The notes under the pieces: generated by a model
What the model was told of the DNA's origin: nothing
What the model saw: the letters and a program-made list of their open reading frames with translations, nothing else
Database searches by the model: none
Translations under genes and position numbers: made by a program
Part shown: positions 126-32,605 of the stretch, piece after piece
How the letters are laid out: the number at the start of each line of letters is the position of its first letter
Position numbering within the stretch: position 1 is the first letter of the stretch
Assembly: GCA_945971755.1 (NCBI GenBank)
Contig: CAMFPJ010000002.1
Coordinates: 1 to 34,769, forward strand
DNA length: 34,769 bases
From: an uncultured Clostridia bacterium
Lineage (GTDB): Bacteria > Bacillota > Clostridia > Oscillospirales > Acutalibacteraceae
Reading direction: 5' to 3'

Positions 126-836
126 TTAGCCGCCTAAGTATGCTTTCTTAACCTCTTCGCTTTGCATAAGCTCTGTGCCTGTGCCTGAAAGAGCGATTTT
201 TCCGTTTTCGAGTACATAGGCTCTGTCGGAAATTGCAAGGGATTTACCTGCATTTTGCTCAACTAAAAGAATTGTTGTGCCTCGCTTGTGAAAGGTTTTG
301 ATAATATCAAACACCTGGTCAACAAGAAGGGGAGAAAGACCCATAGAGGGCTCGTCAAGCATAAGTAATTCCGGGTTGCTCATCATAGCTCTGCCCATAG
401 CCAGCATTTGCTGTTCACCGCCGGAAAGTGTACCCGCCATTTGATTTTTTCTTTCTTCCAATCGGGGGAACCACTCATATATTTCCGTAATATTTTGCTT
501 GATTTTAGTTTTATCCTTTTGTGAGTATGCACCCATAATAAGATTGTCATAAACGGAAAGCTCTTGAAAAACTCTTCTGCCTTCGGGAACCTGCGCAATA
601 CCTAAATTAACAATTTTGTGGCAGGGCATATTGGTGATATCTTTACCGTTGTAGGTTACTGTGCCGCCGCTTGTGGGAATAAGACCGTTTACGCTTTGCA
701 TAGTGGTAGTTTTACCTGCGCCGTTGGCGCCTATAAGCGTAACAATCTCGCCTTTATTAACCTCAAAGCTGATTCCGTCTAATGCTTTAATAACACCGTA
801 GTGTACCTGGAGCTGTTTTACTTCTAACAATGCCAT
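126..836 (-). CDS. livF: Branched-chain amino acid ABC transporter, ATP-binding protein LivF
   Basis: Walker A GANGAGKTT, signature LSGGEQQ, Walker B LLMLDEPSMGLSP; last gene of a livJHMGF-ordered cluster. Confidence 0.96.
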   Translation of the reverse strand: MALLEVKQLQVHYGVIKALDGISFEVNKGEIVTLIGANGAGKTTTMQSVNGLIPTSGGTVTYNGKDITNMPCHKIVNLGIAQVPEGRRVFQELSVYDNLIMGAYSQKDKTKIKQNITEIYEWFPRLEERKNQMAGTLSGGEQQMLAMGRAMMSNPELLMLDEPSMGLSPLLVDQVFDIIKTFHKRGTTILLVEQNAGKSLAISDRAYVLENGKIALSGTGTELMQSEEVKKAYLGG

Positions 837-839
837 AAC

Positions 840-1610
840 TTAACCTCCGATATACGCCTTAATAACCTCAGGGTCATTAAGCGCTTCTTCTGCAGTGCCT
901 TCGGCAAGCGTTGTACCAAAGTTTAATACCGTGAGTTCATCACAAAGTCCCGATACGAATTTTAAGTCGTGCTCAATAAGAAGAATTGTCATATCAAATT
1001 CATCGCGGATTCTTCTTACTATTCTCATAAGGTCCTCTGTTTCGTTGGGATTCATACCTGCTGCAGGCTCGTCAAGGAGCAAAAGCTTTGGGTTAGTGGC
1101 AAGAGCGCGGGCAATTTCAAGCTTTCTCTGTTTGCCGTACGGAAGGTTACAGGCAAGGTTGTTTCTTTCTTCATAAAGGTCAAAAATCCTTAAGATTTCT
1201 TTTGCCTTTTCTCTGCAACGGATTTCGGTATCAAAGTGCTTGGGTAGTCTTAGCATACTTGCAAAGGGAGTGCACTTAAATTCCGGTTGATTATGAAGTC
1301 CGACCATAACATTCCTAATAACACTCATATTGTTGAAAAGACGAATATTCTGGAATGTACGGGCAATACCCTCGTGATTGATTTTTTCCTGAGTTTTGCC
1401 TGTAAGCTCTTTGCCGTCTAAATAAAACGTGCCGGTTGTTGGCTTATAAACGCCTGTGAGCAGATTAAAAACGGTAGTTTTACCCGCGCCGTTAGGGCCT
1501 ACAAGACCGTAAAGCTGATTTTTCTTTATTTTAAGGTTAATATCGTCAAGCGCTTTAAGACCGCCGAAGGAGATACCGAGATTTTTTGTTTCAAGTAAAT
1601 ATTCTGCCAT
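840..1610 (-). CDS. livG: Branched-chain amino acid ABC transporter, ATP-binding protein LivG
   Basis: True N-terminus MAEYLLETKNLGISFGG; Walker A GPNGAGKTT, LLLLDEPAAGMNP. The track ORF extends upstream to 1814, but the first 68 aa are out-of-frame livM sequence. Confidence 0.95.
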   Translation of the reverse strand: MAEYLLETKNLGISFGGLKALDDINLKIKKNQLYGLVGPNGAGKTTVFNLLTGVYKPTTGTFYLDGKELTGKTQEKINHEGIARTFQNIRLFNNMSVIRNVMVGLHNQPEFKCTPFASMLRLPKHFDTEIRCREKAKEILRIFDLYEERNNLACNLPYGKQRKLEIARALATNPKLLLLDEPAAGMNPNETEDLMRIVRRIRDEFDMTILLIEHDLKFVSGLCDELTVLNFGTTLAEGTAEEALNDPEVIKAYIGG

Positions 1611-1611
1611 C

Positions 1612-2754
1612 TTATTTATCTCCTTTCTCTGCCGTGTCCGACTCAGCTTCATCATTATTGGGAAGGTTGGCTGTAAGAACCTCATCCATAGGGATTTTAG
1701 TGGGAACTCTTCTCCAGTCCACCTCGTCATCGTGAATTGTTTCGGGATTTTTATTTTTCTTTGCAGGATTGGAAACAGATAGCTTATCCTTAACCTTTTT
1801 AAGTGCGGGGGCATTGTTGAATATAACTACAATAATAAGAATTATAGCGTAAACAGCCTGCTTAATTTCTGCCATATCTCCTGAAAGATTGTTTTGAAGT
1901 AATGCGTTGATGTAAACGATAAGGGATGCAGAAATTATTGAGCCGCGCATACTGCCGATACCGCCCAGAACTACCATAACAAGTATTTCGATAGAGTAGT
2001 TGTATGTGAAAGCGTCTTGGCGAACAGTGGAGAGTGAATGTCCGTAGAGAACACCTGCAACACCTGCAAAGCAAGCGGCAAGTGCGAACACAAATAATTT
2101 GTAGTATGTTACATTTATACCCATAGATTTTGCCGCAATTTCGTTATCGCGAATAGCGGTAATTGCTCTGCCGTGCTTGCTTCTTATGAGACTTTGGCAA
2201 AGGAATAATACAATGGTAAGAGTAATAAGGGTAATTATAAAAAGGGTTGTGCCCTCAAACTTTTTAGTAGACATACCCATAGCGCCGCCGAAGGTTTCGC
2301 TTGAGGTGTTGTTGAATATGTTACGGATAATTTCACCAAATGCTAAGGTAACAATTGCTAAGTAGTCGCCTTTAAGTCGCAGTGCCGGTAAACCTACAAT
2401 AAAGCCTAAGACGGTAGCAACTAATCCGCCTACAATCATAGCGAGAACAAGAACTAAAATTTTGTTGTCGATAACGCCGTACATATAATTTGCAAAAAAG
2501 CAACCGATATATGCGCCTGCGCACATAAATCCTGCATGTCCTAAGGATAACTCACCTAAGAAACCGACAACTAAGTTAAGCGATACTGCCAGAATTGCCG
2601 AATAGCCCATTTTTATAATAAGGCCTGTCAATGACCTGCCTAAAAGTCCGAATTGATCGGCAATAATCAAAACGGCTAAAAGAGCAATAAGCACAAAATA
2701 ATTGATGTTATTTTTTAACTTGAAGGATTGTTTAATGTTTTTTATATACTGCAT
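1612..2754 (-). CDS. livM: Branched-chain amino acid ABC transporter permease LivM with a hydrophilic C-terminal tail
   Basis: Multi-TM permease; GELSLGHAGFMCAGAY and GGIGSMRGSIISA motifs typical of LivM. Confidence 0.94.
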   Translation of the reverse strand: MQYIKNIKQSFKLKNNINYFVLIALLAVLIIADQFGLLGRSLTGLIIKMGYSAILAVSLNLVVGFLGELSLGHAGFMCAGAYIGCFFANYMYGVIDNKILVLVLAMIVGGLVATVLGFIVGLPALRLKGDYLAIVTLAFGEIIRNIFNNTSSETFGGAMGMSTKKFEGTTLFIITLITLTIVLFLCQSLIRSKHGRAITAIRDNEIAAKSMGINVTYYKLFVFALAACFAGVAGVLYGHSLSTVRQDAFTYNYSIEILVMVVLGGIGSMRGSIISASLIVYINALLQNNLSGDMAEIKQAVYAIILIIVVIFNNAPALKKVKDKLSVSNPAKKNKNPETIHDDEVDWRRVPTKIPMDEVLTANLPNNDEAESDTAEKGDK

Positions 2755-2756
2755 AA

Positions 2757-3650
2757 TTACACCTTAACCCTTCTCTTTTTACCTAAAAGACCGATGGGCC
2801 TGATAAGTAATATAAGTATTAAAATACCGAACTCTATAGCTAATGTGTATGAGCTAAGTGCGGGAATACTTTTGCAAATACTCTCAATAAGTCCCATAAG
2901 AATACCGCCCAACATAGCGCCCGGAATGGAACCGATACCGCCTATAACGGCGGCGGCAAATGCCTTTATACCGGGCATAGAGCCAAGTGTGGGGTTAACT
3001 GCCGGAATACCGAAAAGATAGAACAGTGCGGCGAATGCGGCAAGCGCTGAGCCTATGGCAAAGGTAATCATAATTATTTTATTTACATTTATACCCATAA
3101 GCTGCGCGGCACCCTTATCTTCGGAAACAGCTACCATAGCTTTACCTGTGCGAGTGTTTTTGATAAACACCGTTAATGCCACCATCAGTATTATACCGAC
3201 AACAAGCGTAACAACAGTACCCACGCTAACCTTTGCGGCACCTATATCAATATTTCCTAAATTAGGCATTGTGATAGGTAATGCTCTTGCACCGAACAAA
3301 AGCTGAGACGAACCTTGTAAAAAGTAGCTCACACCTATAGCGGTAATAAGAACCGCCAAGGGAGATGCTCCGCGAAGAGGTTTGTAAGCAATTTTTTCAA
3401 TAGTAACACCGAACACGGTGCATACAATAACCGAAAAAAGAATCGCTGCAACAAGTGTAAGCACGGGACCTCCTATATTCAAATTCATTACCGTTATGAA
3501 AATTGTGTAAGAACCTACCATGATGATATCACCGTGGGCAAAGTTCAACATTTTTGCAATACCGTATACCATAGTGTAGCCGAGGGCTATAAGTGCATAG
3601 ATAGCACCAAGGCTAAGACCATTGATAAGGACGCTTATAATCGTACTCAT
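2757..3650 (-). CDS. livH: Branched-chain amino acid ABC transporter permease LivH
   Basis: NGLSLGAIYALIALGYTMVYGIAKMLNFAHGDIIMVG motif typical of LivH. Confidence 0.96.
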   Translation of the reverse strand: MSTIISVLINGLSLGAIYALIALGYTMVYGIAKMLNFAHGDIIMVGSYTIFITVMNLNIGGPVLTLVAAILFSVIVCTVFGVTIEKIAYKPLRGASPLAVLITAIGVSYFLQGSSQLLFGARALPITMPNLGNIDIGAAKVSVGTVVTLVVGIILMVALTVFIKNTRTGKAMVAVSEDKGAAQLMGINVNKIIMITFAIGSALAAFAALFYLFGIPAVNPTLGSMPGIKAFAAAVIGGIGSIPGAMLGGILMGLIESICKSIPALSSYTLAIEFGILILILLIRPIGLLGKKRRVKV

Positions 3651-3747
3651 TCTATGTACCCCTTAAAAATATTTTGATGTTTTGTAGCTTACATCGGACA
3701 AAAACAAAGATTATTCGACTTTGTTTCTCTCCAATATAAGTTGCACC

Positions 3748-3779
3748 GCAACCGACGCGGTTCCCCGCATCGGTTGCGC
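3748..3779. other. Strong intercistronic stem-loop between livJ and livH
   Basis: cgcaaccgacgcgg ttcc ccgcatcggttgcg, about 14 bp stem with one mismatch/wobble; no adjacent T-run on either strand. Confidence 0.7.
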
Positions 3780-3809
3780 TGATTGACTTTAAGAATAATC
3801 TAATTCGGA

Positions 3810-4964
3810 TTAGAGTTCAACAATAACAGGAACCTTTGTGCAAGCGCCTGATGCGTCCCAAGTCATTTCACCTGTAAGGCCTTTAAGAACAAAGCCTTCT
3901 GCTGTGATTGCTACCTGAAGAGCGTCCGAAAGATCGCTTGCAGAAATGTTTGCATCGTCGATACCTGCAGCCTTCATACCTTCGAAAATAGCATAAACTG
4001 CATCGTAGCCGTCAGCTGCAAACTGGTCGGGCTTTTCGCCGTATTTCTCTTCATATGTTGCAACGAAAGCAGAAACTTTAGCGTCTGTGCTGTTTACATC
4101 GAAAGGAGTGATGTAGCTGATGTCGTTAGTAACAACCGCTTTGTCTATCTGCTCTGCAACACCGTCAAGACCGTCGCAGCCGAAGAGAGCGGCGGTAACA
4201 CCCTTGCTTGCGCAAGCGTTAGCAATAAGACCTGCTTCTGTGTAGTAAATAGGAAGGAAGATAACATCGCAATCCTTGAGGGCATCTACCTGAGCAGAGA
4301 AATCCTTCTTGTTGTCTGCGTCGAATGTACGAACTTCGAATGTTGTGCCAGATTTATCCATTTCAGCCTTAAATGCGTCGTAGATACCTGTTGAGTATGG
4401 GTCGCTTGTGTCGTAGATACAACCGATGTTTTTGTACTTAGCAACAAGCTTCTGAGCGGCAAGAGTACCCTGGTCAGGGTCGCCGAAGCAAACGCGGAAA
4501 GAGTTACTGCCGTATGAGATAACCTTGGCTGCGGAAGCAGATGGAGTGATGAAGAAGAGGTTGTCTTCTTGAGCTGCACCTGCAAAAGCCTCGCAAGAGC
4601 CTGATGTTACGGAGCCGAGAGAAACCTGCATACCCTCATCCATAAGAGCGTCGTAAGCGGTAGCGGCATCTGCGGCAGCAGCCTTGTCGTCTTTCATTTC
4701 GAACTTGAATGTAATGCCGTTAAGTCCGCCTGCGGCATTGATTTCTGCAATTGCAATCTCTGCACCGTTTTTAACGGAGATGCCGTATGATGAAGCATCG
4801 CCTGTTAAAGGACCTGTAGCACCGATGAAAATTTCTTTCTTAGCATCTGTGTTTGCGTTGTTTCCGCCGTCGTCGTTGTCTGCTTTTGTGCCACAAGCTG
4901 TGAAGCAACCAAGTACTAATGTGGCTACCAAAACAAGAGCGGCAACTTTCATGAATTTTTTCAT
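3810..4964 (-). CDS. livJ: Branched-chain amino acid ABC transporter substrate-binding lipoprotein
   Basis: Lipoprotein signal MKKFMKVAALVLVATLVLGCFTACG; IFIGATGPLTGDASSYG periplasmic-binding-protein fold; RBS aaggag upstream. Confidence 0.95.
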   Translation of the reverse strand: MKKFMKVAALVLVATLVLGCFTACGTKADNDDGGNNANTDAKKEIFIGATGPLTGDASSYGISVKNGAEIAIAEINAAGGLNGITFKFEMKDDKAAAADAATAYDALMDEGMQVSLGSVTSGSCEAFAGAAQEDNLFFITPSASAAKVISYGSNSFRVCFGDPDQGTLAAQKLVAKYKNIGCIYDTSDPYSTGIYDAFKAEMDKSGTTFEVRTFDADNKKDFSAQVDALKDCDVIFLPIYYTEAGLIANACASKGVTAALFGCDGLDGVAEQIDKAVVTNDISYITPFDVNSTDAKVSAFVATYEEKYGEKPDQFAADGYDAVYAIFEGMKAAGIDDANISASDLSDALQVAITAEGFVLKGLTGEMTWDASGACTKVPVIVEL

Positions 4965-5002
4965 AAGCTTTGTCTCCTTTTTTAAAATTGCTTATTTTTT
5001 AT

Positions 5003-5043
5003 AATAAAAAGAACTTTACCGTTTTTGAATTCGGCAAAGTCCT
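5003..5043 (-). terminator. Rho-independent terminator-like hairpin between the small Cys-rich ORF and livJ
   Basis: Minus strand: ggACTTTGCCG aattcaaaaa CGGTAAAGT tctttttatt; 9 bp stem with one G-U pair, followed by a U-rich tract. Confidence 0.65.
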
Positions 5044-5069
5044 TTCAATTATTGAACAAAAGTAAAACT

Positions 5070-5324
5070 TTACCTGCTTTTAAATTCTAACTTTTTAATT
5101 GTGAAAATATGCCCAAAACCGATAATAACGATTGGTAGAAGGATGCCTGCAGAAATTTCAATTCTGTTTAAAACTGCACCTAAAAATATAACAAGCACTG
5201 CCAAAAGGACAGTGCAAAGCAAGGATATGCAAGAGTTGAAAGAGCAAGGGCAAGCCGAAGTGCACGCTGCTTTGGAAGCACCGCACATAGTAGCATTAGA
5301 GAAACTTGAGCGTTCACTAAACAT
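5070..5324 (-). CDS. Uncharacterised 84-aa Cys-rich small membrane protein
   Basis: MFSERSSFSNATMCGASKAACTSACPCSFNSCISLLCTVLLAVLVIFLGAVLN...; RBS agaaggg 6-8 nt before the ATG; perfect-consensus promoter upstream; the track ORF start (5375) is probably too early. Confidence 0.7.
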   Translation of the reverse strand: MFSERSSFSNATMCGASKAACTSACPCSFNSCISLLCTVLLAVLVIFLGAVLNRIEISAGILLPIVIIGFGHIFTIKKLEFKSR

Positions 5325-5380
5325 TGTGTTACCCTTCTTTCGAATTTTTAAAGGTTTCCTTAACCTAAAATACATATCGA

Positions 5381-5409
5381 ATTATATGCTCTTTTTATCC
5401 TTTTGTCAA
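5381..5409 (-). promoter_or_regulatory. SigmaA-type promoter for the Cys-rich ORF (and possibly the liv operon)
   Basis: Minus strand TTGACA - 17 nt (aaaggataaaaagagca) - TATAAT; perfect consensus. Confidence 0.8.
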
Positions 5410-25820: not shown

Positions 25821-27515
25821 ATGCTTGCAAACCTTAAAATCAGCAATATTGCAATAATAAAAGAGGCTGTTATTGATTTCGGTAACGGTCTTAATGTGCT
25901 TACCGGCGAAACAGGCGCAGGTAAATCCATTATTATTGATGCAATAAATGCGGTTTTAGGTGAAAGAACTTCAAGAGAACTTATTCGCACAGGAACTGAT
26001 TTTGCTGAGGTTTGTGCATTATTCCGGAATATAAATAATTCTGTAATAAATGTTCTTACAGAAATCGGTATCCGGCCTGAAGAAGATTCAACTCTTTTAA
26101 TTACCCGTAAAATGTTTGCTGACGGCAAGAATGTCTGCAAAGTAAACGGTCAGTCTGTCACCGTGTCAATGCTGAAAAAAATCGGTCAAACACTAATAAA
26201 TATTCACGGTCAGCTTGACAATCAAAATTTACTTAATGAAGAACATCATGTTTCTTATATTGATGCTTTTTCAGGAAATGAACTTATAAAAGAAGAATAT
26301 GTTACAGCTTACAATTCCTTTAAGGAAGCAGAAAGAAAATACAAATCATTTGTAAACAACGAATCGGAAAAAGCGAGAAAAATTGATATTTTAACTTATC
26401 AGACCGAAGAAATTGAAGCAGCAGACATAAAAACAGGGGAGTACGCTGATTTAATTAAGAGAAGAAGTTTTCTTCAAAACGCAGAAACACTCATTGAACT
26501 TGTGTCCTCTGCGCTTTCTGCTATTCAAGGCGAAGACGGGGAAAACGGTGCCGATTCCCTTGTCTCTTTTGCGTCATCTTCACTTCAAAAGGCTGCAGAT
26601 TACGATGATACATTAAAAACAGTATCCGAAACACTTACTGATATTTCTTATTCGCTTGCTGACTGTGCATCTGAACTTAACAGTTTTTTGTTTTCCGCTG
26701 ATATTGACCCCAAGGAACTCGATTTAGTAGAAGAAAGAATTTCTGTTCTTGAATCTATTTTCAAAAAATACGGCGAAACGGAAGAAGATGTTTTAGAGTA
26801 TCTTCAAAATGCGCAAAAAGAACTTGAAGAAATTACATTCTCAGACAAGATTAAAGAAAATCTGAAAGCAGAAGCAGACGAAAAAGAAAAACAAATGTTT
26901 AGATGTGCCGAAAAGTTAAGTGAAACACGTAAAAGAGCGTCTGAAATGTTTATTAAAACTGTAGAAAATGAACTTGAATTTCTTGAAATGCCGTCTATTG
27001 TATTTAAGGTGGTTCAAAATAAAGTTGAATGCAACGAAAACGGTCAAGATGAGATTTATTTCATGATTTCCGCTAATGCAGGTGAAGAGCCGAAGGCACT
27101 TTCTAAAATAGCATCAGGCGGTGAATTGTCAAGAATAATGCTTGCAATTAAAAATGTTCTTGCAAGTAACGATGAAATCCAAACACTTATTTTTGATGAA
27201 ATTGATACCGGTGTAAGCGGAAGAACAGCACAAAAAATCGGTATTAAACTCAAAGAGGTGTCGTTTGACAGGCAGGTGCTTTGCGTTACTCATTTGGCAC
27301 AGATTGCTTCTTTTGCTGACAGTCATTATTTGATTTCAAAGTCAGAACATGATAATAAAACATTTACCAATGTAAAAATTCTTTCGGATAGCGAGAGAAT
27401 TGATGAGCTTTCAAGAATTATAGGCGGAATTAAAAGTACTGATATTTCTAAAAAAGCCGCCGAAGAACTGATTGTTAACGCTAAAAATTATTTTGTTGAC
27501 AAAAAGCAAAATTAA
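25821..27515 (+). CDS. recN: DNA repair protein RecN
   Basis: GLNVLTGETGAGKSIIIDAI; ASGGELSRIMLAIK; LIFDEIDTGVSGRTAQKIG. Confidence 0.98.
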   Translation: MLANLKISNIAIIKEAVIDFGNGLNVLTGETGAGKSIIIDAINAVLGERTSRELIRTGTDFAEVCALFRNINNSVINVLTEIGIRPEEDSTLLITRKMFADGKNVCKVNGQSVTVSMLKKIGQTLINIHGQLDNQNLLNEEHHVSYIDAFSGNELIKEEYVTAYNSFKEAERKYKSFVNNESEKARKIDILTYQTEEIEAADIKTGEYADLIKRRSFLQNAETLIELVSSALSAIQGEDGENGADSLVSFASSSLQKAADYDDTLKTVSETLTDISYSLADCASELNSFLFSADIDPKELDLVEERISVLESIFKKYGETEEDVLEYLQNAQKELEEITFSDKIKENLKAEADEKEKQMFRCAEKLSETRKRASEMFIKTVENELEFLEMPSIVFKVVQNKVECNENGQDEIYFMISANAGEEPKALSKIASGGELSRIMLAIKNVLASNDEIQTLIFDEIDTGVSGRTAQKIGIKLKEVSFDRQVLCVTHLAQIASFADSHYLISKSEHDNKTFTNVKILSDSERIDELSRIIGGIKSTDISKKAAEELIVNAKNYFVDKKQN

Positions 27516-27529: not shown

Positions 27530-27781
27530 GTAAAGATTATGACACGAAGAAGTAACAGTTACTTTAAGCAAAGAGAGTTTTCGGTCGGTGTAAGAAAACG
27601 TGAAGGTGCTGTGAAATACATCGTCGAGTTGTTGCCCTGAACTTTTATTAGGGGCAAACGGGAGTTCCCGTTACAGAACAGAGTAATGTCAGTTACTCGT
27701 TAAGGTCATTTTCGTGAGGAAATGGCAAATTGAGGTGGTATCACGGTTTTTCGTCCTCTGCTTTTTGCAGAGGGCTTTTTT
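27530..27781 (+). ncRNA. T-box riboswitch (tyrosyl-tRNA responsive) upstream of tyrS
   Basis: T-box core gaggTGGTatcacgg (27731-27745), Stem I with agagag and ggtg elements, candidate Tyr specifier TAC at 27617-27619, terminator CCTCTGC...GCAGAGGgcTTTTTT. Confidence 0.93.
27755..27781 (+). terminator. T-box terminator
   Basis: cctctgc tttt gcagagg gcttttttt. Confidence 0.9.
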
Positions 27782-32404: not shown

Positions 32405-32434
32405 ACGTTTCTCGGTATTAAGACGAATCAAAAT

Positions 32435-32600
32435 ACGAAAGCACTCCATCAGATGATGACAGTCACATTACTCTTAATAATGCAACCAGCGTTTGCCCAT
32501 TCAGGTAAGCAAATGCTTCGGCAATAAATCCTTTTTGACTTCATCTTAAGTCCCTGACAACTTCAAAAATCATACTGATATTTATTGCGCCTCAATCGCA
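32435..32600 (-). ncRNA. Lysine riboswitch (L-box) upstream of asd
   Basis: Minus strand conserved blocks: gaGGCGCaataaatatcAGTAtga ... ttattGCCGAAGCatttgcttacctgaatGGGCaaacGCTGG ... GACTGTCAtcatctgatgGAGTGCTttc, followed by a terminator and asd. Confidence 0.9.
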
Positions 32601-32605
32601 ATAAT

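Follow-up and report, generated by a model that had tools for sequence, protein, structure and literature searches.

A long, membrane-protein-like leader ORF as candidate attenuator of the livJHMGF operon in an uncultured Clostridia bacterium

In the stretch of DNA analysed here (34,769 nucleotides from an uncultured Clostridia bacterium, hereafter "the window"), a small transcription unit directly precedes an operon for a branched-chain amino acid importer. An initial annotation had described it as an orphan six-cysteine membrane protein equipped with its own promoter and terminator. Does this unit encode a protein in its own right, or does it serve the operon that follows? All of its parts lie on the minus strand. 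A promoter matching the consensus TTGACA-N17-TATAAT in 12 out of 12 positions (5381-5409) is followed by the ribosome-binding site AGAAGGG (5332-5338), located 7 nt before an ATG at 5324, by an ORF of 84 codons (5070-5324, stop included) terminated by TAA at 5070, and by an intrinsic terminator with a U-rich tail (5001-5046, arms 5032-5046 and 5007-5021). Perfect promoters of this kind number 16 in 670 kb of this genome, above the roughly one that its base composition would yield by chance. The terminator hairpin (5046-5007) folds with -17.5 kcal/mol (z -6.75) and surpasses all of 200 shuffled sequences; with its 10-nt loop it escaped a simple scanner. The initial annotation had placed all of these elements correctly, and we likewise recovered the compact arrangement of N-terminal cysteines (positions 14, 21, 25, 27, 32 and 37) and the two hydrophobic stretches behind it. 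The terminator ends just 42 nt before the ATG of livJ (3810-4964), the first structural gene, which encodes a substrate-binding protein (Peripla_BP_6) and is followed by livH, livM, livG and livF for the permeases and ATPases of the importer (126-3650), all identities being backed by Pfam. At this short distance, the unit and livJ cannot clearly be regarded as independent of each other.

If the ORF specified a genuine small two-transmembrane protein, it would be the first liv gene, its product would assist or modulate the importer, and the terminator would merely lower downstream expression by partial termination. Its own ribosome-binding site and two clear hydrophobic stretches argue for such a protein, and in being short, having two such stretches and neighbouring a transporter it resembles the small membrane proteins found beside transporters. 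Unlike these, it has no match in Pfam, NCBIfam, PHROGs or PDB sequences, in line with the family having gone unrecognised in the initial annotation. Searches in 38 genomes of the same genus and about 400 of the same family, in its own genome and in GTDB contigs, viral contigs, phages and plasmids did not yield a convincing relative of the 84-residue protein, and many of the weak matches were interrupted by stops or lay on the strand opposite a known gene, ybaB among others. At the DNA level, comparison of the locus with the genus genomes gave short chance matches only. The order livJ/ORF/uvrB is absent from the other genus genomes examined, where different genes occupy the uvrB side, and the junction is thus specific to this genome among those compared. 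When 670 kb of this genome (an incomplete assembly of 1.36 Mb, 85% complete) were scanned for small membrane ORFs rich in cysteine, no paralogue came to light. AlphaFold, run on the single sequence, returned a low-confidence helix (residues 29-81; pLDDT 65, pTM 0.33). At 39% G+C, the ORF stands above the sequence on either side (31% and 25%). Codon bias is intermediate: the synonymous score ranks at the 10th percentile among gene windows and higher than that of 92% of non-coding ORFs. On the opposite strand, an open frame of 141 codons was rejected as a gene on the grounds of a non-coding codon score and the lack of a Pfam match.

Counterparts emerged by position. Two further livJHMGF operons, one from Ruminococcaceae UBA1767 (L172) and one from genome G479 (L194), have the same layout as the window: a 12/12 promoter is followed by an ORF (81 codons in one, 87 in the other) behind a good ribosome-binding site, by a terminator and by the importer genes. 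In the genus of G479 the liv operon occurs in one of ten genomes, namely G479 itself, and the ORF likewise occurs only there; the congeners of G479 and G203 that were checked for further leader ORFs do not contain this liv operon. The proteins encoded by the three ORFs can hardly be aligned (identities of 24% and 16%), and against the six cysteines of the window ORF the counterparts have three and four, at different positions and without conserved spacing. The metal-binding, redox or palmitoylation role that had been suggested for the cysteine motif is therefore not supported. A homologous ORF with conserved cysteine spacing was not found in close relatives either, and still the locus is not spurious. 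What the three ORFs share is a two-part make-up: about 30 residues that are nearly devoid of Ile, Leu and Val and rich in Cys, Ser, Thr, Ala and Gly precede about 50 residues of which half are Ile, Leu or Val. In the window, codons 1-32 (5229-5324) contain none of these three amino acids, while they account for 25 of the 47 codons 33-79 (5088-5228), which include the two predicted transmembrane stretches and which we infer to be the control codons. Among 17,695 30-residue segments of the genome's proteins, only 3 resemble the N-terminus of the window ORF, and 10 and 12 resemble those of its counterparts. The Ile/Leu/Val fraction over 50 residues (0.50-0.52 in all three ORFs) falls within the top 0.1% of all segments, although for the window ORF it is not extreme once hydropathy is considered, as hydropathy-matched segments attain it in 9% of cases. 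The Ile, Leu and Val codons used are not obviously rare ones. A scan of 1.33 Mb of collected sequence for this composition plus a ribosome-binding site returned these three ORFs alone, which illustrates rarity and is not an independent discovery, since the criteria were derived from the same ORFs and the leader hypothesis itself was formed on these loci.

A further point concerns the stop codon. In the window, the segment GGUAAAGUUUU (5064-5074), within which the stop codon resides, can pair with 5033-5045, bases that also belong to the 5' arm of the terminator, so that a putative antiterminator helix and the terminator would compete for the same sequence. A helix at the stop codon can take in the terminator 5' arm in all three loci. 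When the 45 nt before the arm were shuffled 500 times, an equal or better helix was obtained in 36 cases for the window (p about 0.07), in 3 for L172 (p 0.006) and in 2 for L194 (p 0.004), with a combined p of 3e-4. A helix as strong was absent from all 69 ordinary gene-terminator pairs examined in the same genome. With longer upstream context, the window reached 101/500 and 197/500, which is not significant, and for the window itself the competition is therefore best termed suggestive. For a small membrane protein, such helices in three out of three loci would be unexpected, as would the low identity and the shifting cysteines of ORFs that share composition and not residues, and most of the 67 livJ loci that we compared lack an ORF of this kind altogether. 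Moreover, a terminator that renders livJ scarcer than a tiny protein would be odd for a binding-protein operon. The recurrence of ORFs of similar length and architecture in three liv operons keeps this explanation worth considering; all in all we judge it unlikely.

Could the unit and the operon be expressed independently of each other? In the set of 67 livJ loci, the position of the promoter was measured in each. A promoter of at least 10/12 lies no more than 135 nt from livJ in 56 of them, and livJ promoters elsewhere mostly score 10-12/12. For livJ of the window, the sole promoter of at least 10/12 is situated 445 nt upstream of the gene, and the ORF and the terminator occupy the gap. Six of the 11 loci that lack a proximal promoter combine a distal one (-239 to -451) with a terminator between promoter and livJ (L032, which is the window, L172, L194, L192, L217 and L173), as compared to a single one (L193) of the 56 loci with a proximal promoter (Fisher exact p = 3e-5). 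The consensus promoter thus probably drives the ORF and, by read-through, the liv operon. Two separate units, one an orphan gene complete with promoter and terminator and the other livJ under a promoter hidden in the terminator region, would find support in the strength of the terminator and in a promoter-like site of 9/12 (TTCAAA-17-TATTAT, 5029-5001) that could serve livJ and to that extent counts against a leader function. This site overlaps the terminator hairpin, though, weak sites of this type (itself included) numbered 5 in the scan versus 3.5 expected in shuffled sequences, and neither L172 nor L194 contains an equivalent, i.e., a promoter of at least 8/12 between terminator and livJ. 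We consider such a division into two units quite improbable. The terminator described as the ORF's own in the initial annotation is real and strong; we rather regard it as belonging to the liv leader. Least probable of all is a small RNA or structured leader with an accidentally open frame, to which the intermediate codon bias and the leader terminators without comparable ORF in L192 and L217 would lend some credit, against a ribosome-binding site, an ATG and 84 open codons with a rare two-part composition that recurs in two other operons, and against an Rfam search of the leader that gave nothing at gathering score (including no match to the T-box, RF00230) and, below it, chance-level matches to miRNA models of eukaryotes and to a single enterobacterial sRNA model.

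What can be read from the DNA is how the parts are ordered, that predicted helices overlap at the terminator, that livJ has no good promoter close by, that the codon content of the ORF is two-part and that the arrangement recurs in two further operons. On balance, these observations lead us to favor a translation-coupled attenuator, that is, a regulatory leader of livJHMGF with an exceptionally long, membrane-protein-like leader ORF. Transcription would start at the consensus promoter and pass through the 84-codon ORF first. With plentiful Ile, Leu and Val, the ribosome would cross the half that is dense in these codons and reach the stop codon, where it would cover the antiterminator arm; the terminator could then fold and transcription would end before livJ. 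Under limitation of these amino acids, or of translation as such, the ribosome would stall in the Ile/Leu/Val-dense part, the helix at the stop codon would capture the 5' arm of the terminator and the polymerase would read into livJ. That the polymerase reads through, that the ribosome stalls and that branched-chain amino acids are the signal we infer from sequence. The unit noted as an orphan cysteine-rich protein is real and most likely consists of an unusually long leader ORF; of the proposals in the initial annotation, the one that survives was made in passing and gave it a regulatory or accessory role for the neighbouring Liv transporter.

The proposed attenuator has much in common with the branched-chain leader attenuators of enterobacterial ilv and leu operons and of Staphylococcus aureus ilv-leu, where a Leu-rich attenuator peptide is encoded before the operon (PMC5794164): a promoter, an ORF dense in Ile, Leu and Val codons, a competing antiterminator and terminator, and an operon for the same amino acids. 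It differs in that the ORFs comprise 81-87 codons and not a few dozen, in that about 30 first codons lack Ile, Leu and Val and are rich in Cys, Ser, Thr, Ala and Gly, in the resemblance of the product to a membrane protein and in the downstream genes, which encode an importer instead of a biosynthetic pathway. Known leader peptides mostly have fewer than 40 codons. The length of 84 codons therefore counts against a leader function, as do the two hydrophobic stretches, which resemble those of a real membrane protein; a short leader, however, is typical of the family and is not required by the mechanism. Leader peptides do occur in Firmicutes, and many short "hypothetical" ORFs have been predicted to be leaders (PMC2965389). 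If our explanation is correct, ORFs annotated as orphan membrane proteins before transporter operons can be regulatory leaders that far exceed textbook length and that escape homology searches, as layout and composition alone are kept.

The cysteine-rich first part is not explained by sensing of Ile, Leu and Val alone. It may simply be the section that has to be translated without these amino acids, it may report other substrates, or, if a real small membrane protein is made, it may form one of its functional domains. Beyond the regulatory effect of its translation, the peptide could be functional itself or lack any function. Weak import of cysteine has been described for the LIV system of Escherichia coli (PMC7373191). 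We attach only a small probability to a dual-purpose element, in which the long ORF would act in cis as an attenuator and also yield a stable membrane protein. Were this the case, the first part, rich in Cys, Ser, Thr, Ala and Gly, and the second, dense in Ile, Leu and Val, would together allow a single ribosome read-out to report the wider range of substrates of LIV-type importers before the operon is switched.

Leaders of a different type are found at the same place in other genomes. In Anaerococcus degeneri, a T-box (L173:2718-2952) precedes the liv operon, and its terminator ends 32 nt before livJ. The specifier reads AUC (Ile), as deduced from an alignment with the tyrosine T-box of the window, which has UAC at this position. 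In a more distant relative, a liv operon of this kind is therefore controlled by Ile-sensing termination, which is an independent hint in favor of a leader function in the window. Place, operon and a terminator before livJ are the same as in the window, yet the T-box (RF00230) senses uncharged tRNA directly and without translation, and the leader of the window does not match it. T-boxes and leader peptides are known to be exchanged at the same gene (PMC2965389). One and the same operon would accordingly be equipped with different sensors in related Clostridia, be it an Ile T-box, a leader ORF or a plain promoter.

The remaining two loci with a distal promoter have leader terminators without a clear antiterminator and, as they lack an ORF like that of the window, count against the leader explanation. 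Upstream of livJ in L192 (genome G203), a 12/12 promoter is followed by a hydrophobic ORF of 37 codons and then by one of 30 codons, the stop codon of which lies inside the terminator hairpin. L217 (genome G619) has a leader of about 240 nt with a terminator, without an evident ORF and without an Rfam match, and is possibly an undescribed structured leader. In many genomes of the genus to which the window belongs, a recurring 5' UTR hairpin, CAATATGCAGGA ... TCCTGCAAA ... ATATTGGGAGG, adjoins the ribosome-binding site of livJ within the last 80 nt or so before the gene (L034-L037, L040, L041, L043, L044 and L048). It did not match Rfam in the four loci compared (L034, L036, L037 and L043) and could be a separate RNA element controlling liv. 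Within the operon of the window, a G+C-rich inverted repeat, GCAACCGATGCGGGG...CGCGTCGGTTGC, was spotted by eye in the gap between livJ and livH (about 3690-3780, minus strand); as a stabilizing or processing hairpin, it might hold expression of livJ at a higher level than that of the permease genes. Elsewhere in the window, the tyrosine T-box mentioned above (27530-27761, plus strand) lies before a tyrosyl-tRNA synthetase gene, with a 12/12 promoter ahead of the T-box at 27495. A lysine riboswitch (32431-32603, minus strand) is located before genes resembling asd, dapA and dapB.
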